Below, piece after piece: positions 2,187 through 18,207 of a DNA stretch of 20,102 nt. The stretch lies in the IMG/VR virus record IMGVR_UViG_3300023179_000633, positions 1 through 20,102 of that record; one strand, given 5' to 3'. Below the pieces are notes generated by a model. That model did not search any database. It was not told the DNA's origin and saw only the letters and a program-made list of their open reading frames with translations. The translations under genes and the position numbers were made by a program. The stretch's first letter is position 1. Each line of letters opens with the position of its first letter. Origin of the DNA: a virus.

Positions 2187-2373
2187 TCTTTTCTCTGTTC
2201 GTTTTGATTATCGGTCCGACCAGCAATAGATTTACGATAAATTCAATTGCGAGCCATTGTGGGTAGGTTGGGTCTGCTCCAAATATGCTTTCAAGGTCCG
2301 TCCAGGCGTAAACATAGTCACACAACAGAGCAACTAAAAAGAAGGAGAGCACACTGATTATGAGCTGTTTCAT
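2146..2373 (-). CDS. Small two-helix membrane protein
   Basis: A 75-residue protein with a hydrophobic N-terminal segment (about residues 3-24, possibly a signal anchor), a short polar loop rich in D, P and W, a second hydrophobic segment (about 41-56) and a hydrophilic, mostly basic tail. Its ATG overlaps the upstream gene's TGA as ATGA (2370-2373), a classic coupling arrangement that argues it is a real gene. Its 3' end overlaps the dCMP deaminase start by 41 bases. Function is unknown. A membrane protein between two soluble dNTP enzymes is unexpected, and a holin-like topology is possible but unsupported. Confidence 0.65.
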   Translation of the reverse strand: MKQLIISVLSFFLVALLCDYVYAWTDLESIFGADPTYPQWLAIEFIVNLLLVGPIIKTNREKNDSKGSKVPLDLP

Positions 2374-3248
2374 TTGTTTAAATTATTTTTTATCCAAGTC
2401 ATCAATTCGTCATCGATCGTTTCAAGAACATTAGATTGCGTTGAGAAAAGATTATTGAGCAGTAAAGAGGGCTCACCCTTGACGGAAATAAGCTCTTCTT
2501 TTACCCTAGGTATCTGCTTTGGAACAAAGTCGTCAGTCAACATTCTTTTTACTAGTTCAAAGTGTCTTTCGTATAGGTGGAACGAATTTGCTATGTGAGT
2601 GTAGGTGCCTAAAGTCAAGTCGCTAAATTTTTCTCCACCGTGGGTAGCTAGGTGAAGCAGCATCTGTGACTGTAGAGTAGAAAAAAAGGCAACATCGGTC
2701 GGTAGTCCTAATATGACGTCATTGCTCCTCATACTAACAGTTAGGTTGAGTCTATTGTCTCTTATTTGAAATATTCCATACATTGTGCACACAAAATCCT
2801 TGTTTCCTTCGCTCTGATGAGTGGGTAGGTTAAAGTGTAAGATTGCTTGACGGGTGTCTTTGTCTTTTATTAGAGATTCAAAGGCCCAATGATATTGAGT
2901 AAACCCATGTTCATTTGGAAGGTTGAACAAGAGGTGACCGTACGCTGAGTTTAAGGTTCCATCACTGTTTTGAATGGACTCCCAAAACTTTGCATATTTT
3001 GAAATATAACTCGCATCGTTTCTTCCCATAAAATACCAAAGAAGCTCAGCCGCGATGTACCTGTATTGAGAAGAGCGCTGAGCGTTTTCATAAAGACAGG
3101 AAAGAGGATTCGTTATTACTAAAGAAACGTTACAATTTTCCTTTATTGACATTTCTCGAGGAGAGATTATGTGCTCTGGAAAAGCAAAAAGATCGAATAG
3201 GCTTTTCCGGTATGCCTCAGCAAAGGTGTTAGACCTGTAAATTAACAT
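2370..3248 (-). CDS. Thymidylate-synthase-fold enzyme, probable dCMP hydroxymethylase (T4 gp42-like)
   Basis: A 292-residue enzyme of the thymidylate synthase/pyrimidine hydroxymethylase family, which adds a one-carbon unit from methylene-tetrahydrofolate to C5 of a pyrimidine nucleotide. Visible features are AELLWYFMG with Glu68, LNSAYG (99-104), DTRQAI with phosphate-binding Arg133, catalytic Cys154 in DFVCT, MRSNDVILGLPTD (173-185) and NSFHLYERHF (221-230). Three points favour dCMP over dUMP. The Cys context is FVCT, as in T4 gp42 (FMCT), not the PCH of ThyA. The MRSNDV string is identical to gp42. The residue aligned without gaps to E. coli ThyA Asn177 is Asp185, as in gp42, and that position selects uracil or cytosine. 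A dCMP methylase is the main alternative. It is the first gene of the operon with dCMP deaminase, as these activities coexist in T4. Confidence 0.8.
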   Translation of the reverse strand: MLIYRSNTFAEAYRKSLFDLFAFPEHIISPREMSIKENCNVSLVITNPLSCLYENAQRSSQYRYIAAELLWYFMGRNDASYISKYAKFWESIQNSDGTLNSAYGHLLFNLPNEHGFTQYHWAFESLIKDKDTRQAILHFNLPTHQSEGNKDFVCTMYGIFQIRDNRLNLTVSMRSNDVILGLPTDVAFFSTLQSQMLLHLATHGGEKFSDLTLGTYTHIANSFHLYERHFELVKRMLTDDFVPKQIPRVKEELISVKGEPSLLLNNLFSTQSNVLETIDDELMTWIKNNLNK

Positions 3249-3316: not shown

Positions 3317-5980
3317 ATGGGCGTCAGCCAGCTTTATCCCATAATTGATTTTACGCAGATAAGTTTTACGAATATTCCATCAGGTGCATACCTTTTAGGC
3401 TTTGACTCTAGCAATGGAATGAAGCTTTGTAAAATAGACAACACTGGCACCATAACTATCATCGAAGGAGTCGTAGGAGGTGGTGGTACTTCGGGCACCA
3501 GCGGTACTTCCGGCACTAGGGGCACTTCTGGTACTTCTGGAGCAAACGGTACTTCTGGTACTTCTGGAGCAAACGGTACTTCTGGTACTTCTGGAGCAAA
3601 CGGTACTTCTGGTACATCCGGCTCCTTAGGTACTGACGGTACTTCGGGTTCAAGCGGTACTTCTGGTACTAGGGGTACTTCAGGTTCAAGCGGATCGTCA
3701 GGAAGTTCAGGAACGGGCGGAAGCTCAGGTTCAAGCGGCACAAGCGGTTCTTCAGGAACATCAGGTAGTAGTGGTTCTTCGGGAACTAGTGGAAGCTCAG
3801 GTTCAAGCGGCACAAGCGGTTCTTCAGGAACATCAGGTAGTAGTGGTTCTTCGGGAACTTCTGGCTCTTCGGGTACAAGTGGAACCAACGGCAGCCCAGG
3901 TACATCTGGTTCTTCAGGAACTAATGGTAGCTCAGGCACAAGTGGAACATCGGGGAGTTCAGGTACACCCGGATCGTCAGGAACTTCCGGTAGCTCAGGT
4001 ACAAGCGGTAGCTCGGGTACAAGCGGTAGCTCGGGTACAAGCGGTAGCTCGGGTACAAGCGGTAGTTCTGGCACTAGTGGAACGTCTGGCTCAAGCGGAA
4101 CCAGTGGAACGTCTGGCTCAAGTGGAACATCGGGAACCTCTGGCTCAAGCGGAACAAGCGGTACATCGGGTAGCTCTGGAACATCAGGTAGCTCTGGAAC
4201 CAGTGGAACGTCAGGTAGCTCAGGAACGTCGGGTAGTAGCGGAACTAGTGGTACTTCAGGAACAGATGGTACTTCAGGATCTAGTGGAACAGATGGCACT
4301 AGTGGAACAGATGGAACTTCGGGAACAGATGGCACTAGTGGAACAGATGGTACTTCAGGATCTAGTGGAACAGATGGCACTAGTGGAACAGATGGAACTT
4401 CGGGAACAGATGGCACTAGTGGAACAGATGGTACTTCGGGAACAGATGGTACTTCAGGATCTAGTGGAACAGATGGCACTAGTGGAACAGATGGAACTTC
4501 GGGAACAGATGGAACTTCAGGGACAAGTGGAACAGATGGAAGTTCTGGAACAAGCGGCACCGATGGTACTAGCGGCACCGATGGTACTAGCGGCACCGAT
4601 GGAACTAGCGGCACTAGCGGCACCGATGGTACTAGCGGCACCGATGGTACTAGCGGCACCGATGGTACTAGCGGCTCTAGCGGCACCGATGGTACTAGCG
4701 GCTCTAGCGGCACCGATGGTACTAGCGGCTCTTCAGGGTCTTCAGGATCCAGTGGAACAGACGGCACTTCGGGAACAGATGGCACTTCAGGATCTTCGGG
4801 AACAAATGGCACTTCAGGATCTAGTGGAACTAGTGGAATTAATGGTATCTCGGGTGGTGCAATTTACTATTTTAATGAGTCGGTGACACAAACACCGTAT
4901 AAAGAATTTTCCACAATACCAACCGCCGCTGCGCAACAAACAGTTACAGTAACAATTGGAGTAGGAGCAACTTCAACTATAGGATCATATCTAACACCTA
5001 CATCGGTTCCAAATGTAACTGCTATTCCTGCAGGAATCTGGTCCTTTTATTTGCATGCATATAAACAAAACGCCAATGCAAGTTTCGATATATTCTGTGA
5101 AGTCTATTCACGTACTTCTGGAGGAACAGAAACGTTACTTTTTTCAACAGACCCTGCGCCAGTAACAACAAATTCACCAAATCCATCAATGTCAATATCT
5201 GATGGATTTCAGCCAGGATACACAATTAACACTACTGATAGAATACTGGTTAAAGTAAGAGCAACGAACACCTCTAACCAGCCGCATAATATTACCTTTG
5301 TAACTGAAGGTACCGTGCATTACTCATTTGCACAAACAACATTAGGATCCGTATCTAGTACATCAGGAACCAGTGGGACTTCTGGCAGTAGCGGAAGCTC
5401 GGGAACTTCTGGCTCTTCGGGTACAAGTGGAACCAGCGGCAGCTCAGGTTCATCTGGTTCTTCAGGAACTAATGGTAGCTCAGGCACAAGTGGAACATCG
5501 GGGAGTTCAGGTTCATCCGGATCTTCAGGAACTAGTGGATCTTCGGGAACATCGGGATCTAGTGGAACTAGTGGTACTTCAGGAACAAGCGGTACTAGCG
5601 GAACTATACCTGCCTCTCTCTCCTCAAATTGCTTTGGGATCACTATAGATGGGGGCGGTTTCGCTATTACTACTGGAGTAAAGGGCTATGTACAAATACC
5701 ATACAACTGCACCATCACAGGATGGACAGTTCTTCTCGACCAAACCGGTAGTATAGTGGTGGATGTGTGGAAAGACACTTTTGCCAACTACCCACCAGTA
5801 GTAGGCGACAGTATTGCTGGCACTGAAAAACCCACAGTCTCAGGAGGCGTTTCCGCACAAGATCTCAATCTTACTACCTGGACTACGAGTGTGAGTGCTG
5901 GGGATGTAGTTGCCTTTAATGTTGACTCAGCAAGTGTAGTTACCCGGGCAACCGTTCAAGTACTTATTACACGGGTGTAA
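3317..5980 (+). CDS. Giant tail fibre with two Gly-X-Y (collagen-like) arrays
   Basis: An 887-residue fibre protein. Residues 1-56 form a short globular N-terminus that may attach to the virion. Residues 57-512 are about 152 uninterrupted Gly-X-Y triplets (mostly GTS, GSS, GTD), with only two prolines. Residues about 513-683 are a beta-rich domain (from AIYYFNESV) of a type common in phage fibres. Residues 684-761 are a second array of 26 triplets. The C-terminal domain (about 762-887; GYVQIPYNCTITGW, then VVDVWKD) is another beta-sandwich common at phage fibre tips and a likely receptor-binding or trimerisation element. Without proline the rods may be unlike classical collagen; a polyglycine-II-like bundle is an alternative. 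Ser and Thr fill nearly every X and Y position, making the rod a plausible target for O-glycosylation by the neighbouring enzyme. Virion location and receptor are inferred. Confidence 0.85.
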   Translation: MGVSQLYPIIDFTQISFTNIPSGAYLLGFDSSNGMKLCKIDNTGTITIIEGVVGGGGTSGTSGTSGTRGTSGTSGANGTSGTSGANGTSGTSGANGTSGTSGSLGTDGTSGSSGTSGTRGTSGSSGSSGSSGTGGSSGSSGTSGSSGTSGSSGSSGTSGSSGSSGTSGSSGTSGSSGSSGTSGSSGTSGTNGSPGTSGSSGTNGSSGTSGTSGSSGTPGSSGTSGSSGTSGSSGTSGSSGTSGSSGTSGSSGTSGTSGSSGTSGTSGSSGTSGTSGSSGTSGTSGSSGTSGSSGTSGTSGSSGTSGSSGTSGTSGTDGTSGSSGTDGTSGTDGTSGTDGTSGTDGTSGSSGTDGTSGTDGTSGTDGTSGTDGTSGTDGTSGSSGTDGTSGTDGTSGTDGTSGTSGTDGSSGTSGTDGTSGTDGTSGTDGTSGTSGTDGTSGTDGTSGTDGTSGSSGTDGTSGSSGTDGTSGSSGSSGSSGTDGTSGTDGTSGSSGTNGTSGSSGTSGINGISGGAIYYFNESVTQTPYKEFSTIPTAAAQQTVTVTIGVGATSTIGSYLTPTSVPNVTAIPAGIWSFYLHAYKQNANASFDIFCEVYSRTSGGTETLLFSTDPAPVTTNSPNPSMSISDGFQPGYTINTTDRILVKVRATNTSNQPHNITFVTEGTVHYSFAQTTLGSVSSTSGTSGTSGSSGSSGTSGSSGTSGTSGSSGSSGSSGTNGSSGTSGTSGSSGSSGSSGTSGSSGTSGSSGTSGTSGTSGTSGTIPASLSSNCFGITIDGGGFAITTGVKGYVQIPYNCTITGWTVLLDQTGSIVVDVWKDTFANYPPVVGDSIAGTEKPTVSGGVSAQDLNLTTWTTSVSAGDVVAFNVDSASVVTRATVQVLITRV
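3485..4852 (+). repeat. Long in-frame Gly-X-Y coding array (about 152 triplets)
   Basis: A 1368-base array of 9-base-periodic DNA with nested higher-order repeats. These include a 27-base unit (ending in a GAN triplet) three times in a row at 3521-3601; a 72-base unit repeated at 3719 and 3791; an 18-base GSSGTS unit about four times at about 3989-4062; an 81-99-base unit of GTD/GTS/GSS at about 4270, 4351 and 4450; and an 18-base GTDGTS unit repeated across about 4552-4730. Local blocks share synonymous codon choices, which points to expansion by recombination or slippage at the DNA level. Confidence 0.9.
5366..5599 (+). repeat. Short second Gly-X-Y coding array (26 triplets)
   Basis: Twenty-six Gly-X-Y triplets (GTS and GSS with one GTN) link the middle and C-terminal domains of the same fibre. 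Bases 5401-5531 are nearly identical to 3853-3983 in the first array, with about six differences by eye in 131 bases. The two arrays therefore exchanged or copied sequence recently rather than converging at the protein level. Confidence 0.9.
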
Positions 5981-6001
5981 ATCAAAATTATTTAATTAAA
6001 T

Positions 6002-6223
6002 ATGATAGTACAACTCTATAACAAAAGAATCATAGGAGACTCTGCACATTACGATGCAGCCTTTTTCTATGAAACCCAGGAAGGTCCACTCCAAAGCGAA
6101 ACTATGCTGGGTGGAATCATTTTTCATCGTGATGTAACTCACGGTGAATTAGAGGCTTGGGCACAGCACACGGTAGAGAGTCTCTATCCGGAAGAACAGC
6201 TAACACAAACAAATATCATCTAA
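6002..6223 (+). CDS. Small hypothetical protein between the two fibre genes
   Basis: A 73-residue, mildly acidic soluble protein that I do not recognise. It has a possible beta-hairpin start (MIVQLYNKRIIG), an aromatic patch (DAAFFYETQ) and a helical C-terminal half (about residues 47-65). It starts 21 bases after the collagen-like fibre stop, behind an A/T-rich leader without a Shine-Dalgarno sequence. Its TAA overlaps the ATG of the next fibre gene (TAATG, 6221-6225), so translation of the two is coupled. The position suggests a fibre-associated protein or fibre chaperone, which is inference from context only. Confidence 0.6.
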   Translation: MIVQLYNKRIIGDSAHYDAAFFYETQEGPLQSETMLGGIIFHRDVTHGELEAWAQHTVESLYPEEQLTQTNII

Positions 6224-8916
6224 TGGCAACACTCTTATCAGCAGCAGACGGAAATTTCACAACCACCAGCACCTGGAAAGCGGTAAACGCAACATCATTT
6301 CTAGATAGCCGGTTTGGAGGCACCTCTACTGGTCCAGCAGCAAATTCATCTGCATTTATACCGGGTGCAATCACTGTTGAAGGCGTGGCAATTCAGATAA
6401 TTACACGCAGTTCTTCACTGGGCGGGACGCTTACGGTTTCTCTCTGGAATGTAACAGCCGGATCACAAGTATCTGGAACAGCAGTCACAATCGATGTCAA
6501 CGACTTACCAGATGTTTATGGACTGAGTAATTCTGCCGGGATTGGCTGGGTGTATTTCAAATTTGCTGCTCCAGTAACTCTATTGGCGGCTACTAATTAT
6601 GCAGTCCGAGTAGCCTCTTCTGTTACCCTTTCGGTTACCGTTTATCGTGATTCGACGGGTGGTAACTGGAGTCGGGCCCTGGTAACCTCTACCACCGCGG
6701 CTCCAGCTTCCAGCGACGTACTTATCATTACTGGAGAGTATACTGGCCAGGGAGCTTCCGCTAGTCGCACCGTGACAATGAATAACACGGCTACCACTTC
6801 ATTTGGACAAACCTACGTCAGCACAAAAGGCTCACTCACTTACGGTAATTCAGCGTCTACTGCCTATGTTTTACGTTTAGCGGGTAATCTATTTGTTACT
6901 GGTGGAGGAACGCTAACGATTGGAACTTCGGTGTCACCCATTGTTTCTACTTCTACCGCAGTTTTGGAATTTGACATACTTTCCAATGGGCAGTATGGGC
7001 TTACCGTTGCTGGCGGCAACTTTTATGCCTACGGACAGTCTAAGACTAAATATCTTCGTCTTGCCGCTGATGCATCAGCAAGTGCAACTACACTTACTCT
7101 TAGTGCTACACCAACTGGTTGGCTTTCCGGAAATACAATTGGAATTACCGGAACAACCACTACTGCTACCCAGGCTGAAGTGGGAACTTTAGCATCTAAT
7201 GTAACCGGGACCTCTGCTACAATAACAATTGGTTTATCCAGTGCTCACGGAGGAAACTCCACTACCTTGGTCCAAGCACACGTCACTAATCTTACCCGAA
7301 ACGTGAGTATACGCTCAACCAGTACCACGCTTCCTTCCTACTCATCCTACTCTGGAACCAACACTACTGTTGAAATTTCTAATGTTATTTTTTCCATGAT
7401 GGGTTCCACAACAGCCAGCACCGCCGCAATTTCATTATTCAATACTGGCGTGACAAGAAACTCTTCATTTACCATGGATAACAGCGTGGTCTATCAATCA
7501 ATACCCGCTTCAGGGTCTTACGGGTTTTCACAAGGCAACACATCACTCACCTCACCGGTTTCTTATACATTTACAAATAACATTATTTGGAATTTGCAAA
7601 CTATAGGCATGGCTAATATAAATTCCTCTGCACTCACCACTAAAAACCTAAGTGGAAATTTAATAGTAAGATCCGGAACAGTGATTCCGAATGACCTGAC
7701 CGCTAATATGGACAATATGATAGTGGCAAACTCGGCATCAGGTACAAATGCGGTTCAGTTAACTCTTAATACTAACAGTGCACCTTATCCAACAGGGTCA
7801 ATTAACGTCTTTACCAACCTTGAGACCTATGGAAGTGGAGTTCAAGGCTTTTGTATATCGACGCAAACACCGTCCTCAGCAACCGGAAAGGTCGTCATCA
7901 ATGCCAATAACATTACCTCTTGGAGAAACGCAAACGGCTTTTCATTAGGATTTTCTGGTAACGCAATTGATTACATCAACCCACTGAGCAGCTTTGTTTT
8001 AGACAACGCAAGAAGCTTTGGAAATTCCAATTCAGCGGTTTTAATCAACTCCGTCAGTAACACATCCGTCATCTTTAAGAACTCTACTTTTTGGGCAGGG
8101 TCTAGCAGCATCACGCCAAACGGTATTACTGGTTTGGTTACCTCTCCTTCAAACCCGGTAGAGACGGTGCTGTTCAAAGACTGTACTTTTGGAAAAGATC
8201 ACCTGGGTAATACTTCGTCATTCACCACATCAGTAATAACCTTGGCAAACTTTAGAGGCGCAGCTAACCTACAATTATACAATCCCACCACAACCGGGAC
8301 TCTTGTTTCAAGAAATACGGCCTTGAGTAACTCTGGCGGATATTCACCGGGCATAGTCATACAAAAACTTAATGGAACGACTGGGAGCGATTTTATCTAC
8401 AGTAACACCTCCACTATATCATTGGACTCTACTATTTACAAAACATCAACTCCTTCAACAAGAATAGCTCCAGTCACTCTTGGTGTTTTAACTCCTTCCA
8501 GCACAGTACGAATTCCAGTTAAAAGCGGGCAAACCTCAACGGTGAGTGTCTGGGTCCGCAAGTCCTCCTTGGGTGATGGAGCAGCCTACAATGGAGGTCA
8601 GCCTACGCTGGTTATGCGCCCTAACCTGCCAATGAACAACCTGGACAACACAACGGTTGCAACAATGACGGCCTCGGTAGGGACATGGGAACAGCTCTCC
8701 TACACCACAGGTACTGCTCCGTATGATACTATTCTGGAGTTTATGGTAGTCTGTGACGGTAGCACTGGGTGGGTCAACATTGATGAGTGGGATACCACTT
8801 CAAGTAACGACACGCGGGATAACTTTATTGCCATAGGCGTAGTCGGTCAGTATGTAGAGCCCGACTACTCTCCGATCGTTACTGGAGGGGGAGGCTCGTT
8901 TACCTTTATATCATAG
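6223..8916 (+). CDS. Tail fibre/tailspike with G8-like domain and beta-helix
   Basis: An 897-residue protein. The start at 6223 is chosen because its ATG overlaps the preceding TAA and the mature-looking MATLLSAADG begins there; in-frame upstream codons from 6157 lie inside the previous gene. Residues about 1-170 form a beta-sandwich (LTVSLWNVTAG, YAVRVASS). Residues about 220-365 follow the G8 domain pattern of CEMIP/PKHD1-type proteins: GGTLTIG, then GQYGLTVAGG, ATTLTLSATPTGWLSG, and ending LTRNVSIRS. Residues about 366-750 have the short hydrophobic/Asn/Ser strand rhythm of a right-handed beta-helix. Residues about 750-897 resemble a carbohydrate-binding beta-sandwich (VSVWVRK, GWVNIDEW). 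G8 plus beta-helix proteins often bind or cleave polysaccharides, so this may be a glycan-binding or depolymerising spike. No catalytic residues can be assigned. Arginine codon use changes sharply between its domains. Confidence 0.8.
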   Translation: MATLLSAADGNFTTTSTWKAVNATSFLDSRFGGTSTGPAANSSAFIPGAITVEGVAIQIITRSSSLGGTLTVSLWNVTAGSQVSGTAVTIDVNDLPDVYGLSNSAGIGWVYFKFAAPVTLLAATNYAVRVASSVTLSVTVYRDSTGGNWSRALVTSTTAAPASSDVLIITGEYTGQGASASRTVTMNNTATTSFGQTYVSTKGSLTYGNSASTAYVLRLAGNLFVTGGGTLTIGTSVSPIVSTSTAVLEFDILSNGQYGLTVAGGNFYAYGQSKTKYLRLAADASASATTLTLSATPTGWLSGNTIGITGTTTTATQAEVGTLASNVTGTSATITIGLSSAHGGNSTTLVQAHVTNLTRNVSIRSTSTTLPSYSSYSGTNTTVEISNVIFSMMGSTTASTAAISLFNTGVTRNSSFTMDNSVVYQSIPASGSYGFSQGNTSLTSPVSYTFTNNIIWNLQTIGMANINSSALTTKNLSGNLIVRSGTVIPNDLTANMDNMIVANSASGTNAVQLTLNTNSAPYPTGSINVFTNLETYGSGVQGFCISTQTPSSATGKVVINANNITSWRNANGFSLGFSGNAIDYINPLSSFVLDNARSFGNSNSAVLINSVSNTSVIFKNSTFWAGSSSITPNGITGLVTSPSNPVETVLFKDCTFGKDHLGNTSSFTTSVITLANFRGAANLQLYNPTTTGTLVSRNTALSNSGGYSPGIVIQKLNGTTGSDFIYSNTSTISLDSTIYKTSTPSTRIAPVTLGVLTPSSTVRIPVKSGQTSTVSVWVRKSSLGDGAAYNGGQPTLVMRPNLPMNNLDNTTVATMTASVGTWEQLSYTTGTAPYDTILEFMVVCDGSTGWVNIDEWDTTSSNDTRDNFIAIGVVGQYVEPDYSPIVTGGGGSFTFIS

Positions 8917-9028
8917 CGAAGGGGCGAACTTTTCTTAAATTACCCTTAGGGATTAGCGCTACAGTCAACGATCGGCCTTAGCTGAGGGATAAAAAATGAG
9001 CAATCTAGAACTTGGATCAAGCATTTTG

Positions 9029-9042
9029 TATAAAATATAAAA
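9029..9042 (+). promoter_or_regulatory. TATA-rich element upstream of the glycosyltransferase
   Basis: The 134-base gap 8917-9050 holds no coding sequence I can support. It contains TATAAAATATAAAA, which ends eight bases before the preferred ATG at 9051. It resembles the late-promoter octamers elsewhere in the window but is not an exact NATAAATA. A short imperfect palindrome (CCTTAGCTGAGG, about 8978-8990) lacks a following T-run, so I do not call a terminator. Confidence 0.25.
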
Positions 9043-9050
9043 CTTCTTCT

Positions 9051-12000
9051 ATGATTAAAGTAAGAGCCCACACCTGTTATCTAGGCAAAACGGGCTACGC
9101 CGCCCATGCAAGGGCATTCTTTAGGGAATTATCAAAGCACGTAGAGCTAAGAGTAAGAAACTTTACTTGGGACGACGCTCCAGACTATCTAAACGAGATA
9201 GACCTTTCAGTATTAGACAAGATAACTCTAATAAACAGAGAAAACAAATACTCTGATTATCCCATGTCCTATTCTTTTCCAGACAAGGACTGGAAACATC
9301 GGGAGATTGATGGGTTTGAAGCAGAGGTCGACATAGTCTTGATGGACGCAGACCACCATTACTTTTATGAGGAGTATTCGGCTAAAACGAGGATCGCATA
9401 CACGGTTTGGGAAAGCACAGAGATTGAGGAAAATTTCTTCAATCGGTTGCTAGCGTTCGACTATCTTTGGGTAGTCACCGAGTGGCACAAGCAGGTGGCA
9501 ACGGACCAGGGATATCCAGAAAATAGGATTTTTGTGGTAAACGAAGGAGTAAATGAAGAATTTTTTGAGGACTCAAGCTTTCCTAAAAACAGTCCATTTA
9601 GATTTATGTTTTTTGGCAGGTGGGATTACAGAAAAGCTGTGCCAGAGATAATAGGATCTTTTCTGGAGGCCTTTCCAGATGAAAAGGTTGAACTAATCCT
9701 GAGCGCAGACAATCCTTTCTCGGTAGACGGGTTTAACTCTACTGAAGAACGTCTGACGCACTATGGATTCACAGACTCTCGTATAAAAGTAGAGCATTTT
9801 TTAAGTAGGGAAGAGTACGTGAACTACATTAAATCCGGAGATGTGTTGATTACTTGCGCTCGTAGCGAAGGCTGGAACATACCGCTAATAGAGGCGATGG
9901 CGGCAGGCACGCCAGTCACCTATTCGGACTGGGGAGCACAGCTAGAATTCGCAAGAGGCAAGGGCACCCCGATAAAGATATTAGAGGAGCGACCGGCAAG
10001 GATAGGTTTTGATTTGGGATTTGCCGGAAGCGCGCCTGGAAACTATGCTGAGCCTGACTTTGGAGACCTGGTAGAAAAACTGAGGGACTGTTATCTAAAC
10101 TTTGAATCTAAAAAGAGGGAGGCGGTCGGCTTTGCTAAAGAAATAAGGGAACGGTTTAGCTGGGAAAAGGTCGGAACCGATGCTTTCCAGGTATTGAAAG
10201 AGCTGACTGCACTCTCCAGAAAAGAGAAAAAGTCGGGAGAGCTAGCGATCGTGCTGTCCCATGCAGACACCGAAGAAAAAAGGCAGCTGCTAAGAAGGAG
10301 TGTAGCTTCTCTAAAGAGCCAAGGTCTTACTGTCCTGGTCTCAACTCACATAAAGATTGACGAAGAAACTGAAAGCTTGATCGATATCGTGGTTCACGAT
10401 AAGGACAACCCGATTCTTTATCAAGAGGAATACGAGAGGCTTTCAAACACGATTCCAATCTTTTCAATGAGTTACCCAACGTTTAAACTAACGTATCCCT
10501 TCGATTATAACCACGGGTTCGCTGCCCTCAAGCTAATAAAGAACGGGCTGGCGGTTGCCTTTGCTGGCGGCTACCACACCTCGCACGTAATAAACTATGA
10601 CTATGTGATAGCTAACGAAGAAACCCTACAAAGACACAGCCTTGGGCTTGAAAATCATGAGGTGGTCGCCTATGCTTGGGACTCTGGAGAATCCATGAAT
10701 TCAGCCCTTTTTTCGGTAAGGAGCAAGGAGATGCACGATGCGCTGTCTGGGTTTTATTCTAAGGAGAGTTATTTTAGCTTTGATGAAAAGGTGATACTTG
10801 AAGACGTGCTCTATGAAATCTGTAGGGCAACCGGACTTAAGGTCTTGACTCTAGACATCGAAGAGGCAAAGCTGGGCAACGAGATAAACTGTGTGATACT
10901 TAAGACCTTTCCCTATATAGACACGGACAGGGGAAGAACCTATCTCTATCTGACCAAAGACGAAATGGATCAAAGGCATGTGATGTTGATGGGGGCAGAC
11001 TATTTGGATCCGCTCACGCTAGTTATTTCTCATGGAACAGAGGTTTCAAGGTTTACGGTGAAGGGCGGAGGAGTAAAGTTCGTTGAGATTCCAGACGAGC
11101 TACTGAGCGAGGGAATAACCCTAGAGATACCGGAACTAGGAGTAGACGTCAGGTTTGACGATTCTACCAAAGCTGCAGACTGTTTAATATTCGATCCCCA
11201 GATAGTAGAGAGACTGGATCAAGCTTATGTAGAGCCGACGATTAACATCCATTATGTAAATGGACCAGTCGTTGAGATACTAGGAAAGGGCTCGGGCAGC
11301 TACTTGGTAGAATTCATAGACTCTGAAACAGACAAAAAGATTTTTGAGTCAAGAATCAGGGTAAATCACTGGGCAAGGTGTAATCGCAAGTACTTAGTGA
11401 ACTGGTTGATTCGGGTGACCCACTCGATTACCGGTAGGGTTTGGGAGGAAAAGTTTGATCCAAGAGGAAAGAGGGTGTTTGTTTCCATCGATTCTTCAGC
11501 CCTAGGTGACACTCTGGCCTGGTTTCCACACATCTATGAATTTAAAAAGAGGCACGATTGCACGGTGATCGTGTCTACTTTCAAGAACCACCTTTATAAG
11601 GAAACCTATCCAGAGTTAGAATTTGTAGAACCGGGCAAGTCTGTGCCTGGAATATACGCGGCATATCAGATAGGCTGGTACTATGGAGGAGACAACGAAC
11701 CCAATCCAGACCATCACCCTAGGGACTTTAGAAAGGCGCCAATGCAGGCAACGGTCACGGACATATTGGGGTTAGAATACTCGAGCTTGCGACCGCGATT
11801 AGCCATACCTGATGGGCCCTCTCCATACGACACGCCGTATGTGTGTTTTGGAATACACGCGACAGCTCAGGCAAAGTACTGGAACAACCCAGAAGGCTGG
11901 CAGCAGGTGACCGACTATTTTATAAAGAGGGGAAGAAAGGTGGTGGTCTTGAGTCGAGAAGGGGATGGATACATGGGAAATAACTATCCGATAGGAGTAA

Positions 12001-12956
12001 CCCAAAAGGTAGGAGACCATTCATTAGAGAACGCGATGCTGCACCTAAAGCACTGTGAGATGTTTGTGGGTGTTAGCTCTGGACTAAGCTGGCTCTCCTG
12101 GGCAGTAGGCGCACCCACCACGATAGTAGGAGGATTTAGCTGGCCGATCACTGAGATGGAGGGAGAGTCGGTGATAAGAATATTTAAGGACGGCGTCTGC
12201 AACGGGTGCTTTAACTGGAGTAGGCTTGACCCTGGGGACTGGAACTGGTGTCCTACTCACAAGGGCACGGCTAGGCAGTTCGAATGCACAAGATCGATCT
12301 CTGCAAAAGAAGTGATAGACGAGATAGAAGTCTACTTTAATTTAGGAAGGGCGATCAAGACCGTGGAAGTGATAGTGCACGAATCTTATCAGTTGGGCAT
12401 GGTACAGAACCATCGAGAAATAGTCGATGCCGCGAAATTCGTTCGCTCCCTTGGAATCAAGAACTTTATGGAGATCGGTACCGACCAGGGAGGAACCTTT
12501 GCGATATGGAGCAAGGTCGCAAGCGAGGATGGGCTTAAGATATCTTTGGACCTGCCCCATGGAAACTTTGGAAGGAGCAGCTATGACGTTGTAAAAAGGG
12601 ACGATTACCTTAAGTCGTTGGGTTCAAATGTTCACATGATCCACGGAGACTCCCATTCGCTAGAGGCTAAGCAGAGGATCGCTGAGATACTGGGTGATCA
12701 AAAATTAGACTTCTTATTCATCGATGGAGACCACACCTACGAGGGAGTAAAGGACGACTTTGAACACTACAAGAGATACGTCAGGCCTGGAGGATGGGTA
12801 GGCTTTCATGACATAAAGGACACAGAGTTCCACCGAAGCGTAAACTGCAGGGTAGACCAGCTCTGGGCAGAACTGGAGGGAGAAAAGATAGAATACTTAG
12901 AGACGCGGCCAAACTTTGGAGCTCACTATGGAGGAATCGGCTTTATTCGGGTCTAG
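9051..12956 (+). CDS. Multi-domain glycosyltransferase: GT4 + TibC-like O-heptosyltransferase + methyltransferase
   Basis: A 1301-residue cytosolic enzyme of at least three catalytic-looking units. Residues 1-390 form a GT4-type glycosyltransferase with the signature ARSEGWNIPLIEAMAAGTP (about 270-288). Residues about 395-645 (starting ELAIVLSHADTEEK) look like a second transferase-type alpha/beta region without a name I can give. Residues about 725-1105 match autotransporter O-heptosyltransferases (TibC/Aah family, GT9-like): INIHYVNGP, NHWARCNRKY, SIDSSALGDTLAWFPHI (about 811-827), GVSSGLSWLSWAVGAPT, then Cys1050, 1053, 1067 and 1079, resembling TibC's four-Cys iron site. Residues about 1130-1301 are a class I SAM methyltransferase (MEIGTDQGG at 1140-1148, DFLFIDGDHTYEG at about 1220-1232). 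A TTG at 9012 would add 13 residues, but the ATG at 9051 fits the family better. Likely role: glycan assembly and methylation on a virion protein. DNA or host-glycan modification cannot be excluded. Confidence 0.88.
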   Translation: MIKVRAHTCYLGKTGYAAHARAFFRELSKHVELRVRNFTWDDAPDYLNEIDLSVLDKITLINRENKYSDYPMSYSFPDKDWKHREIDGFEAEVDIVLMDADHHYFYEEYSAKTRIAYTVWESTEIEENFFNRLLAFDYLWVVTEWHKQVATDQGYPENRIFVVNEGVNEEFFEDSSFPKNSPFRFMFFGRWDYRKAVPEIIGSFLEAFPDEKVELILSADNPFSVDGFNSTEERLTHYGFTDSRIKVEHFLSREEYVNYIKSGDVLITCARSEGWNIPLIEAMAAGTPVTYSDWGAQLEFARGKGTPIKILEERPARIGFDLGFAGSAPGNYAEPDFGDLVEKLRDCYLNFESKKREAVGFAKEIRERFSWEKVGTDAFQVLKELTALSRKEKKSGELAIVLSHADTEEKRQLLRRSVASLKSQGLTVLVSTHIKIDEETESLIDIVVHDKDNPILYQEEYERLSNTIPIFSMSYPTFKLTYPFDYNHGFAALKLIKNGLAVAFAGGYHTSHVINYDYVIANEETLQRHSLGLENHEVVAYAWDSGESMNSALFSVRSKEMHDALSGFYSKESYFSFDEKVILEDVLYEICRATGLKVLTLDIEEAKLGNEINCVILKTFPYIDTDRGRTYLYLTKDEMDQRHVMLMGADYLDPLTLVISHGTEVSRFTVKGGGVKFVEIPDELLSEGITLEIPELGVDVRFDDSTKAADCLIFDPQIVERLDQAYVEPTINIHYVNGPVVEILGKGSGSYLVEFIDSETDKKIFESRIRVNHWARCNRKYLVNWLIRVTHSITGRVWEEKFDPRGKRVFVSIDSSALGDTLAWFPHIYEFKKRHDCTVIVSTFKNHLYKETYPELEFVEPGKSVPGIYAAYQIGWYYGGDNEPNPDHHPRDFRKAPMQATVTDILGLEYSSLRPRLAIPDGPSPYDTPYVCFGIHATAQAKYWNNPEGWQQVTDYFIKRGRKVVVLSREGDGYMGNNYPIGVTQKVGDHSLENAMLHLKHCEMFVGVSSGLSWLSWAVGAPTTIVGGFSWPITEMEGESVIRIFKDGVCNGCFNWSRLDPGDWNWCPTHKGTARQFECTRSISAKEVIDEIEVYFNLGRAIKTVEVIVHESYQLGMVQNHREIVDAAKFVRSLGIKNFMEIGTDQGGTFAIWSKVASEDGLKISLDLPHGNFGRSSYDVVKRDDYLKSLGSNVHMIHGDSHSLEAKQRIAEILGDQKLDFLFIDGDHTYEGVKDDFEHYKRYVRPGGWVGFHDIKDTEFHRSVNCRVDQLWAELEGEKIEYLETRPNFGAHYGGIGFIRV

Positions 12957-15268: not shown

Positions 15269-15276
15269 TATTTATT
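15269..15276 (-). promoter_or_regulatory. AATAAATA octamer at the gp15-like/internal-protein junction
   Basis: On the minus strand AATAAATA ends only six bases before the ATG at 15262 and overlaps the stop of the upstream gene. Twelve bases around it (AATAAATAAAAT) are identical to those before 18207. A promoter here would yield an almost leaderless mRNA. An A-rich translation-enhancing leader, as used when Shine-Dalgarno sequences are absent, is an equally good explanation. Confidence 0.3.
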
Positions 15277-16057
15277 CGCTCGGTGGAAAATCTATGTCTA
15301 TCCAAGAATCTGAAATGGTAGAGCCGGTCTGGGTCTGCCCCTGTCTAAGGTTGAACTGGTCTATCTTGTTTCCTTTGTAGAAGGTAGAATAATCGTCAAA
15401 GCTGGGGAAGTAGGTCTCAACAGAAAGAGAAAAAGTGGTGGTGACCATATTTTGATCCGAGTAGACAAAGCTATAGCTCTTTTGAAACTGGGCGTTCTCC
15501 GGAAAAGTTATCTGCATTGGAATCCTGATCCCTCTAAACTGGAAGTATCTTACTTGATTCTTATAGTAAAAATCAAAGACCCTTTCGATTATCTTAAAGG
15601 TCTTATTGATGTTATCGCTCTCTATCTTTAGAGAATAGGTCAAGCTCATCGGAAGAACGAAAAGCCTTGAAGAATAGGCCTTGATCTGTTTCTGTTCGTT
15701 TTCGTTACGGGTTTCCTGATTAAAACTACCCCTAACGAACTTGTTAGTAAGGTCTCCGGTCTTTATTTGAAAGGAGTCTAGGGTGACGATTCCCCTGGGC
15801 ATCTGTTCATAGTTGCCTTCAGCAAAGTTAGGGTAATTACAGTCAGTCGGAAGCTCCAAGAAAAAATCTTTCATAAAACCCTCGTCTCCTCCAAAGTTGT
15901 AGAAGATGGGAACCGTGTGTTCTTCCACGGAATCGCCCCTTTTCAAGTATATCACTATTTCCCGATTTAGAAGGTCCAATAAGGAAAGGGTGGCGTTTCT
16001 TAAAAAGACGTCTTGAACGTTTTGATTTCTTATGTTTTCGTTGTCTGTTCTCTTCAT
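15272..16057 (-). CDS. Tail terminator/sheath stabiliser, T4 gp15-like
   Basis: A 261-residue protein, close to T4 gp15 (272 residues), the hexameric ring that caps the finished tail and docks to the head. The order of features follows gp15: an N-terminal helix (FLRNATLSLLDLLNREIVIY, about residues 18-37), VPIFYNFGGDEGFMKDFF (about 49-66; gp15 has VPITYASKEHFMMKL), PRGIVTLDSFQI (about 87-98), LPMSLTYSLKI (about 134-144) before a helix, IRIPMQITFP and a TTFSLSVETYFPSFD strand (gp15: WSLTFEVNGWMYPP). Overall identity appears low, so the call rests on the matching segment order and length. It follows the large structural gene by five bases and leads into the small head-protein genes. Confidence 0.72.
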   Translation of the reverse strand: MKRTDNENIRNQNVQDVFLRNATLSLLDLLNREIVIYLKRGDSVEEHTVPIFYNFGGDEGFMKDFFLELPTDCNYPNFAEGNYEQMPRGIVTLDSFQIKTGDLTNKFVRGSFNQETRNENEQKQIKAYSSRLFVLPMSLTYSLKIESDNINKTFKIIERVFDFYYKNQVRYFQFRGIRIPMQITFPENAQFQKSYSFVYSDQNMVTTTFSLSVETYFPSFDDYSTFYKGNKIDQFNLRQGQTQTGSTISDSWIDIDFPPSE

Positions 16058-16062
16058 TCTCG

Positions 16063-18207
16063 TTATCTGTTTTTAGCGATGTATGGCAGACTCGTCTGAA
16101 CTCTACAGTTATCGATCAACACTAGCATAGATTCGTCCTTAAGGAACTGCTGACTTAATATAAAATCGTGCTCTTCCTCTTTCAACATCGTATTAAATAC
16201 TCTGATATTGGTTATCAGCAAGTTTGAATTAGGCAGGACGTAGTTCTGGTCGATGTCGAACTGGGTGAGAGCAAAGGAAGAAGTTCCCTGTAGGATAGGA
16301 ACAAAGTCGTTGTGGTTTATGATGTCGCTGGGGTCCTCAGCGATTCGATAGACGTAGGTAGCACACTGTAAAAACTCGTTAGATATCGAGACCACCATTG
16401 CGTGCCACTGGTCGCTCACAAAATTTGCAATCGAATAGTTCTTGAACTGTGAATTTACTCTTACTGTTAGGTTTAAAAGGCCTTCAGGTTCAGTGCTGAT
16501 GTGTCTAGCGAAGCTACCAGTTATCCTTAGTCCAGACTGACTGTCGCTGTCGAAGCCGTCGATAAAGTTGACGGGTCCTCCAGAGCCGGGCACGTTAAAT
16601 AGGCAGGTAAAGCTTAGGTTTCTATCGGTGTTGTTGTTAAACTTTGGCCTGGCTTGGTAAACGATTGCGGGCTCTCTTACCTTGAACGTAGCGATAGTTT
16701 TACCCGAGACAGTATCGGTAAGGATGTCTCGCTGGTCTTTAAAGCTAAGGTCGCGATATGCTTCTATTCGGATAAATCGGCCGGTTTCAGAGGTTCCTTG
16801 ATGGTTTGGGATGCTGTCGAATGGACCCCTGACTCGACAGTACCTAAAACTGGCGCCCTTAACGTTTTTGTCGTTTGTCAAGAGGCCGTTGTTTCTCCAA
16901 GTAATATAGAGTTGGCTACCCTCATAAGCGATTATCACGTCGTTCGGAGGAGCGGAGCGGCTGTCCAAGTTTGGCAGGGTCTCCAAGGCCTGGGTAGTGG
17001 AGAGGACGGGTGAGGTAGAGAGCAGCTCTGCAACTATATCGCTGGCTGGAACTCCGCCTAAATCATAATAGGTTTCGATCAAAGGCGCAAAATTAAAGGT
17101 GTACTTAAGGGGTCTCTGTATCACGTCTGGATGGATTGCTTTTCTTGAGGAATCAAAGGTGGTGGTTATCTTTTGGTATTGTTCTGGCATGGTACCGTCT
17201 TTGATGTCCCTTTCAACCTCTGCCCCAAATAGCTGCTCTGCATTCACTATCACGTTGTCTAAAAAGCTTCGACTTGAATCGGCAAGCAGCATATCGATGT
17301 TTGGGCTGAACTTTTTGAGCTGAACCTTCCAAAATATGGGCTCCATCATAAACCCTCTGCTCAAGTAGGATCCCTGGATCTCGTACATACGGTTCACTAG
17401 TGGAAAGTAGAGAAAGTCTCTCTTTCTTGGTTCCGAACAGGCCCCAAAGACCGACTGAAAATACTTATGATCGATGTGGATCTCAAAAGGTACTTGAAAG
17501 TCTAGGCCAAACTCGGTGAACTTTGGAGTGTTTTCAGGAAAAGCGTTGTTTGGAACCACTACCTTAACGCACTTACGATCCACGTTCCGGTATAACGTCC
17601 ATTCCTTAAAAACATAATCTCCGCTGTCAGAATCAGGTAGGGTTCTAAAATAGACTACCTGGTGTCCGTATATCTGGTTAGTAAAAAAAGAAAGGTCTTT
17701 GAACATGCTGATTGCGCTGTCCACTTCGTATGGCCTAAAGCTAGGATCGCGGTTTGCTATGATTGAGGTATAGGTCTCGTTAGAGCACTTTACCCCAGGA
17801 GAAAAAAGATTCACCGATCCTGGCGAGGCCTTGAACCTGAGCTTTATCTCGTTTACCTGGATAGTGGTGGGAAGGGCAGCGGTCGTGCCGTCGTCGTATT
17901 CATACTTTATCTCGAAATAAAAAGCGTCCTTTGCATCCAGGATCATGTTTGCAGCATCGCCCACGTTTCCTGGCTCGACTTCATACCAAAGAGACCAATC
18001 CAGCCTGTTCCTAGAATATCTTATCTTTCTAAGGAGGTAGCTTAGGTCTATTGCTCCTGGAGACTCGATAATCAAGTCTTCAATAAACTCAGTAAACTCA
18101 ATTATTCCCTTAACTGGGTCATTGGTAGAAAATATCCTAAAGTTTTTACTAAAGGTGATGGAATTGTTGTTAGGATCTATTTGGAGCTTTACGGTAGTCT
18201 GTACCAT
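16063..18207 (-). CDS. Large virion structural protein with C-terminal LamG-like lectin domain
   Basis: A 714-residue protein that is first in a seven-gene minus-strand operon. The N-terminal part (about residues 1-130) looks like beta-sandwich modules (DWSLWYEV, FYFEIKYEYDDG). The middle (about 130-430) is a long mixed region without a family I recognise. The C-terminal part (about 535-700) has the concanavalin A/laminin-G strand pattern: LSFTCLFNV, LLNLTVRVN, SDQWHAMVVSISN and LLITNIRVFNTMLKEEEHDF, the last being the usual closing strand and helix of LamG domains. Such domains in virion proteins commonly bind glycans or decorate the particle surface. The genomic position beside tail and head genes supports a tail, neck or baseplate role, but which one is open. 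Confidence 0.75.
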   Translation of the reverse strand: MVQTTVKLQIDPNNNSITFSKNFRIFSTNDPVKGIIEFTEFIEDLIIESPGAIDLSYLLRKIRYSRNRLDWSLWYEVEPGNVGDAANMILDAKDAFYFEIKYEYDDGTTAALPTTIQVNEIKLRFKASPGSVNLFSPGVKCSNETYTSIIANRDPSFRPYEVDSAISMFKDLSFFTNQIYGHQVVYFRTLPDSDSGDYVFKEWTLYRNVDRKCVKVVVPNNAFPENTPKFTEFGLDFQVPFEIHIDHKYFQSVFGACSEPRKRDFLYFPLVNRMYEIQGSYLSRGFMMEPIFWKVQLKKFSPNIDMLLADSSRSFLDNVIVNAEQLFGAEVERDIKDGTMPEQYQKITTTFDSSRKAIHPDVIQRPLKYTFNFAPLIETYYDLGGVPASDIVAELLSTSPVLSTTQALETLPNLDSRSAPPNDVIIAYEGSQLYITWRNNGLLTNDKNVKGASFRYCRVRGPFDSIPNHQGTSETGRFIRIEAYRDLSFKDQRDILTDTVSGKTIATFKVREPAIVYQARPKFNNNTDRNLSFTCLFNVPGSGGPVNFIDGFDSDSQSGLRITGSFARHISTEPEGLLNLTVRVNSQFKNYSIANFVSDQWHAMVVSISNEFLQCATYVYRIAEDPSDIINHNDFVPILQGTSSFALTQFDIDQNYVLPNSNLLITNIRVFNTMLKEEEHDFILSQQFLKDESMLVLIDNCRVQTSLPYIAKNR

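Follow-up and report, generated by a model that had tools for sequence, protein, structure and literature searches.

A phage-encoded multi-domain glycosyltransferase of the TibC fold and its likely acceptor, a proline-free collagen-like fibre

Results

The collagen-like fibre

The viral record IMGVR_UViG_3300023179_000633 (20,102 nucleotides; the whole 20.1-kb stretch is called the window here) comes from an environmental phage and carries T4-like tail genes together with a gene for a collagen-like fibre and, 3.07 kb downstream on the same strand, a gene for a large enzyme with a TibC-like glycosyltransferase domain (Table 1). A preliminary description of this DNA had placed the fibre 3.1 kb upstream of the enzyme, had credited it with about 178 Gly-X-Y triplets dominated by Ser and Thr, and had proposed that the enzyme glycosylates it. 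The placement and the composition of the fibre are as described. Two uninterrupted in-phase runs of 155 and 27 triplets give a total of 182, and 86% of the X and Y positions are Ser or Thr (195 Ser and 118 Thr in the arrays); the chief other residue is Asp, found 25 times in Y. The longest Gly-X-Y run in 1000 residue shuffles of the protein was 8 triplets, and the Pfam Collagen family (PF01391) matches the fibre at 241 bits. The 182 triplets contain only two prolines and none in X, so that the arrays lack a proline-rich X position, whereas in bacterial collagens Pro in X averages 19-31% (PMC8968730).

The fibre array also leaves a long antisense open frame (3334-4812, minus strand, 492 aa, with Pro/Val/Glu repeats) of the type that automatic annotation can take for a gene. 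Very long uninterrupted Ser/Thr-rich arrays occur elsewhere, with 558 triplets in L069 (4-5025), 794 in L091 (2-7147) and 861 in L520 (11655-19403, minus strand).

Table 1. Features of the fibre and enzyme genes and of their neighbours in the window.
Feature	Position	Strand	Basis
Collagen-like fibre gene, 887 aa, likely acceptor	3317-5980	+	ORF; Pfam Collagen; PHROG tail fibre / virion structural matches
Gly-X-Y array 1, 155 triplets, chiefly GTS, GSS, GTD	3467-4861	+	in-phase triplet count
Gly-X-Y array 2, 27 triplets	5366-5608	+	in-phase triplet count
Multi-domain enzyme gene, 1301 aa	9051-12956	+	best start ATG 9051; stop ends 12956
GT4-type glycosyltransferase domain, residues 1-395	9051-10235	+	Pfam and PHROG matches
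GT-A-fold domain, residues 396-620	10236-10910	+	AlphaFold model and structure comparison
TibC-like glycosyltransferase domain, residues 716-1110	11196-12380	+	TIGR04414; 4RAP match; fold
Iron-finger cysteines C1050, C1053, C1067, C1079	12198-12287	+	alignment to TibC C339, C342, C358, C370
Class I methyltransferase domain (Methyltransf_24), residues 1121-1301	12411-12953	+	Pfam 66.8 bits, cutoff 26.3, residues 1141-1255
Thymidylate-synthase-like gene adjoining fibre	2370-3248	-	profile match
Repetitive Ser/Thr-rich protein between fibre and enzyme	6226-8916	+	weak G8 match
Tail sheath stabiliser, T4-gp15-type	15272-16057		profile match
Neck protein, weak match	16063-18207		profile match

Domains and active site of the enzyme

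The GT4, GT-A-type and TibC-like domains give the chain three glycosyltransferase folds, in addition to one methyltransferase. The preliminary description had read it as a fused GT4/TibC-like/methyltransferase enzyme; all three of those domains are matched, but the GT-A-fold domain had been overlooked. The GT4 match covers approximately residues 100-390 (phrog_2170, E = 9e-33; Pfam, 5e-8), and homologues of this domain are fused to or adjoin TibC-like genes. In an AlphaFold model spanning residues 396-1115 (mean pLDDT 88.7), the GT-A domain aligns with mannosylglycerate synthase (2y4m; VIA Z 15.4, 2.9 Å over 172 residues); in the window enzyme, Ala replaces the second Asp of the motif of this family.

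The assignment of an O-heptosyltransferase-type domain holds firmly. TIGR04414 (hepto_Aah_TibC) matches residues 748-1093 at 288.4 bits against a curated cutoff of 200, phmmer matches TibC itself (4RAP) at 3e-57, and model residues 333-705 align with residues 21-391 of the TibC chain (VIA Z 38.5, 2.4 Å over 360), the N-terminal beta-barrel included. The motifs NHWARCNRKY and SSALGDTLAWFPHI lie at residues 772 and 815, and they and the four late cysteines are placed as had been claimed. Mapping of the functional residues of TibC (taken from PMC4358343) shows that the catalytic base D110 corresponds to D820 and that the donor-site residues T226, K230 and W305 correspond to T938, K942 and W1014. 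The catalytic and iron-site residues are thus retained, the iron finger being judged by its cysteines in a sequence alignment, and all of these positions (the Asp, the Thr/Lys/Trp of the donor site and the four Cys) are invariant across 83 phage homologues.

Two other donor-site positions differ from TibC. Pro300, which restricts TibC to D,D-heptose (PMC4358343), is Ser in the window enzyme, as it is in AAH. Arg286 of TibC contacts the adenine of ADP-heptose and its mutation cripples the enzyme (PMC4358343); this position is non-Arg in 81 of the 83 phage homologues and Arg in 29 of 39 bacterial relatives. Taken alone, the loss of Arg286 points to an altered donor site. In L028, L030, L033 and L517 the TibC-like gene is directly followed by genes for a nucleotidyltransferase and a kinase, and the best NCBIfam matches of these pairs (L030 11110-12232, L033 11104-12220, L517 16418-17520; L028 via sequence identity with L030) are the two halves of HldE, under the curated cutoffs. 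Despite the missing arginine, the HldE-like pair beside some relatives keeps an ADP-heptose-like donor plausible, and these split genes could possibly be a phage-encoded supply of it. We considered a non-heptose donor and did not adopt it as the main reading; the loss of Arg286 is not decisive, as L028, L030 and L033, which adjoin the HldE-like genes, themselves have Val at this position. gmhA was matched in 2 of 40 records, in none above the cutoff, and a 'cytidylyltransferase like' protein of the Microcystis phage Mel-JY01 had no match in NCBIfam. No autotransporter was matched among the scanned neighbours of the enzyme, where a collagen-like fibre is found instead; because of this absence and the lost Arg286, the protein is not filed here as an autotransporter heptosyltransferase.

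Across relatives the TibC-like core occurs alone or with a GT-A-type domain, with GT4 (L069, L083), with an N-terminal methyltransferase and a GT-A type (L011, L019, L060), or with GT4 and a GT-A type (L081, Mel-JY01), and all four domains are combined in one chain in the window, L003, L086 and L089. Methylation is therefore a recurrent option among these architectures, and their variety suggests that the glycan probably differs between phages.

Co-occurrence of enzyme and array in phage contigs

Contigs of at least 20 kb were picked from IMG/VR by a Ser/Thr-rich Gly-X-Y pattern, the samples being drawn among the matches listed (120 stretches); many contigs are fragments, and related contigs are not independent. 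TIGR04414 was found above its cutoff in 19 of 50 contigs picked by Ser/Thr-rich arrays, in none of 50 picked by Gly-X-Pro arrays (Fisher, 5e-7), and in none of 45 picked by Gly-X-Y arrays with A or T as the second base of the X and Y codons (Fisher, 7e-7). Among contigs of at least 80 kb the counts were 10/13 for Ser/Thr arrays and 0/16 for controls. Conversely, a Ser/Thr-rich array was present in 16 of 29 TibC-bearing contigs longer than 40 kb and in 1 of 50 TibC-less contigs (Fisher, 4e-8), most of the latter having been picked because they had another type of Gly-X-Y array. The check for co-occurrence across genomes that had been proposed for the earlier claim thus gave a strong and specific association.

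Array and enzyme lie at most 10 kb apart in 12 of the 19 contigs. Among contigs of at least 60 kb this holds for 10 of 13, against approximately 4-5 expected by chance, an expectation that assumes a footprint of 30-40 kb and does not take in exact whole-contig array positions. The isolated Mel-JY01 (L082, PP395634.1) has the fibre followed by the enzyme, in the order seen in the window. Within L082 1-2600 the Gly-X-Y fibre reads on the plus strand (2-2599), and the deposited annotation has a minus-strand gene (739-2298) over it, so that the fibre gene appears to have been missed. Among the open-access papers searched we found none reporting TibC-like enzymes in phages or naming TIGR04414, which is weak evidence.

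Phylogeny and bacterial gene pairs

A tree of 116 dereplicated TibC-like domains, obtained by a quick search with SH-aLRT support only and with no root inferred, divides in two at a branch whose support is 96. On one side are 37 bacterial enzymes, TibC among them, and one phage row; in none of the 37 does a Ser/Thr array lie within 10 kb. On the other are 66 phage and 12 bacterial rows, and 56 of these 78, including 11 of the 12 bacterial ones, have such an array within that distance. The array itself had served to retrieve some of the phage rows, and array length to choose the representative of each cluster. Of 50 phage representatives retrieved through the enzyme, 27 have arrays of at least 60% Ser/Thr; for the 32 that have any array, the median Pro content is zero and Ser predominates in Y (median 0.76). 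Four bacterial rows (L532, L534, L539, L586) might in fact be phage contigs assigned to metagenome-assembled genomes (MAGs) in binning.

Two-gene pairs, in methanotrophs a secreted GTS-repeat protein with a TibC-like enzyme, are chromosomal in methanotrophs and in another gammaproteobacterium, and none is found at the 37 classical rows of the TibC/AAH family (BAHT). In the tree the methanotroph enzymes group in a single supported clade. Immediately upstream of its TibC-like gene, Methylobacter luteus encodes a protein of 287 residues with GTA/GTS repeats and an apparent signal peptide; the surrounding genes, which we read as mfd, glycolate-oxidase-type genes and miaB, include none of phage type. 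A secreted-looking protein with 17 GTS triplets adjoins the enzyme in Methylomicrobium sp. RS1, a GTS/GTT protein is paired with it in another methanotroph, and in a gammaproteobacterial MAG lipoprotein-like proteins with GTS and GSS arrays flank it on both sides.

The locus in sister phages

Relatives that share the tail tube, dCMP deaminase and thymidylate-synthase-like genes vary at the site that follows the last of these. Fibre and enzyme are both missing from it in L105, L111 and L112, where the next gene directly adjoins; in L115 and L116 it holds a fibre whose N-terminus is the same but which has no collagen array, and the enzyme is absent; and L120 combines this N-terminus with Gly-Pro-Thr and Gly-Asp-Thr arrays and has no TIGR04414 match on its 56-kb contig. 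Both a Ser/Thr array and the enzyme are present in the window and in L003, which shares the fibre N-terminus and in which the enzyme directly follows the fibre. In L109 a Ser/Thr array is present and the contig ends there. The comparison is suggestive that at this locus the enzyme accompanies the proline-free array and not the fibre as such; as only a handful of lineages are involved, it is not a statistical test.

Neighbouring genes

The protein encoded at 80-655 resembles a tail tube protein. The gap between fibre and enzyme holds a small open reading frame besides the gene at 6226-8916. A dCMP deaminase gene lies beside the thymidylate-synthase-like gene, whose top match is T4 dCMP hydroxymethylase (1.7e-19, against 3e-12 for thymidylate synthase) and which has Asp within the motif GLPTDVAFF; this match and this residue suggest that the phage lineage may carry hydroxymethylcytosine DNA. 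The T4 late promoter TATAAATA does not occur within the window, and scans of the window for tRNA genes and with Rfam gave no matches.

Discussion

From the domains, the active-site residues, the fold and the specific association of array and enzyme across phages and bacteria, all of them directly observed, we infer the acceptor, the donor, the order of steps and the function of this system. The enzyme is probably a protein O-glycosyltransferase with the TibC fold, encoded by the phage and acting on the phage's own proline-free Gly-(Ser/Thr)-(Ser/Thr) fibre. Where the preliminary description had only proximity and composition to connect the two genes, the connection is strengthened by the co-occurrence, by the bacterial two-gene pairs and by the pattern of presence and absence in sister phages. 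The proposal of a TibC-like enzyme acting on the fibre is thereby supported; heptose as the sugar, polymerisation by the GT4 domain, the start-extend-cap order, the function and the presence of the fibre in the virion are still proposals.

Several observations weigh against this reading. Arg286, which TibC needs, is Ala995 in the window enzyme. No TibC-like gene was detected in 31 of the 50 array contigs, and no Ser/Thr array in 13 of the 29 TibC contigs, both sets being fragments in part. TibC-like genes also lie near Pro-rich or mixed Gly-X-Y arrays in L527 (1181-2620), L530 (19270-19992, minus strand) and L007, as well as in L018 and L024, and fibre and enzyme are on opposite strands in several contigs. 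The control arrays may stem from other phage groups, so that lineage is only partly controlled, and the modification of the fibre is itself deduced from genes rather than directly proven.

The two genes might merely share a hypervariable host-recognition island, the enzyme being unrelated to the fibre and altering host lipopolysaccharide (LPS) or capsule, for instance as a barrier to superinfection. The host recognition cluster of pelagimyophages groups glycosyltransferases with tail fibres, and these enzymes have been read as LPS modifiers (PMC7029224); GT4 domains are generic. The association described here, however, depends on the composition of the array (19/50 for Ser/Thr arrays against 0/95 for other Gly-X-Y arrays, presumably fibres too), the bacterial chromosomal pairs stand outside any phage island, and the acceptors known for the TibC family are proteins (PMC4358343). 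A shared island is therefore not a sufficient explanation, and we regard LPS or capsule modification as unlikely.

Two further possibilities arise from the neighbouring genes. The repetitive Ser/Thr-rich protein at 6226-8916, which has a weak G8 match, is encoded nearest to the enzyme, upstream on the same strand; TibC is known to act on beta-helical autotransporters, TibA being a beta-helix (PMC4358343). The protein at 6226-8916 has no homologue in any fetched locus, L003 included, where fibre N-terminus, array and enzyme are all shared with the window; we accordingly disfavour it, and consider it very improbable as the acceptor. Glycosylation of hydroxymethylated cytosine in the phage DNA is more improbable still. 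The dCMP hydroxymethylase-like neighbour and the adjacent dCMP deaminase would fit such an activity, but the thymidylate-synthase-like gene is retained in relatives that lack the enzyme (L105, L111, L113-L116, L120), secreted GTS-repeat proteins are the partners of this enzyme family in bacteria, and no other fold is matched nearly as well as that of TibC.

The proposed glycosylation of the fibre by the TibC-like enzyme has its closest parallel in TibC and AAH, which are proven protein O-glycosyltransferases acting on Ser (BAHT, TIGR04414, PDB 4RAP; PMC4358343). The window enzyme shares with them the fold, the catalytic Asp, the Thr/Lys/Trp donor site, the four-Cys iron finger and a repetitive Ser-rich acceptor encoded next door. 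It differs in lacking the adenine-contacting arginine, in its fusion to GT4, GT-A and methyltransferase domains, and in its likely acceptor, a collagen-like rod rather than a beta-helical autotransporter; enzymes of its type are mostly phage-encoded and fall on a separate side of the family tree. We regard it as a homologous new branch of the family that most likely works likewise on a different acceptor.

Sugar-bearing collagens offer looser parallels. The triplets of BclA, which we take to be of the GPT type and to contain Pro, are unlike those of the window fibre. BclA of Bacillus and Clostridioides spores is likewise collagen-like, and it is glycosylated, its sugar being proposed to help the triple helix (PMC8968730, PMC7157674). 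Its known enzymes are not reported as TibC-like, and it belongs to a spore and not to a virion. Mimivirus is a eukaryotic virus in which the sugar is placed on hydroxylysine by an enzyme of a type unrelated to the TibC-like one. It nonetheless adds sugar to a collagen of its own, which it hydroxylates and glycosylates (Luther et al. 2011, as cited in PMC8968730). The E. coli prophage proteins EPclA and EPclB are collagen-like phage tail fibre proteins as well, but theirs have Pro in about half of the X positions and are stable and non-glycosylated as recombinant proteins (PMC3368898).

We propose that in the infected cell the TibC-like domain would use a nucleotide donor to place a sugar on Ser, and perhaps Thr, along the newly made array, that the GT4 and GT-A domains fused to it would add more sugars, and that the methyltransferase domain would methylate the glycan. 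The result would likely be a rod that is kept in shape or protected by its glycan where other collagens use proline. Of the possible functions of the glycan we favour a structural one, because other bacterial collagens have much Pro in X, because the Pro-rich prophage collagens are stable without sugar, and because threonine glycosylation can stabilise collagen (a route named in Bann et al. 2000, as cited in PMC3368898) and glycosylation influences the conformation of TibA (PMC3835316). Protection from proteases and altered host binding are alternatives. A broader and more tentative idea, which we hold to be possible though doubtful, is that many phages and some bacteria make proline-free rods whose triple helix or extended form needs TibC-like O-glycosylation, the sugar replacing proline or hydroxyproline structurally and enzyme and rod moving as one cassette.

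If the enzyme does act on the fibre, a substrate would be named for widespread multi-domain phage glycosyltransferases that are usually read as modifiers of DNA or LPS, and protein glycosylation of the TibC type, known from adhesins of E. coli, would extend to the fibres of phages. A simple test case for a glycan-dependent collagen would be a single gene pair, taken from a methanotroph or from an isolated phage. Sugar-coated fibres could, in turn, alter phage adsorption, host range and stability in water.
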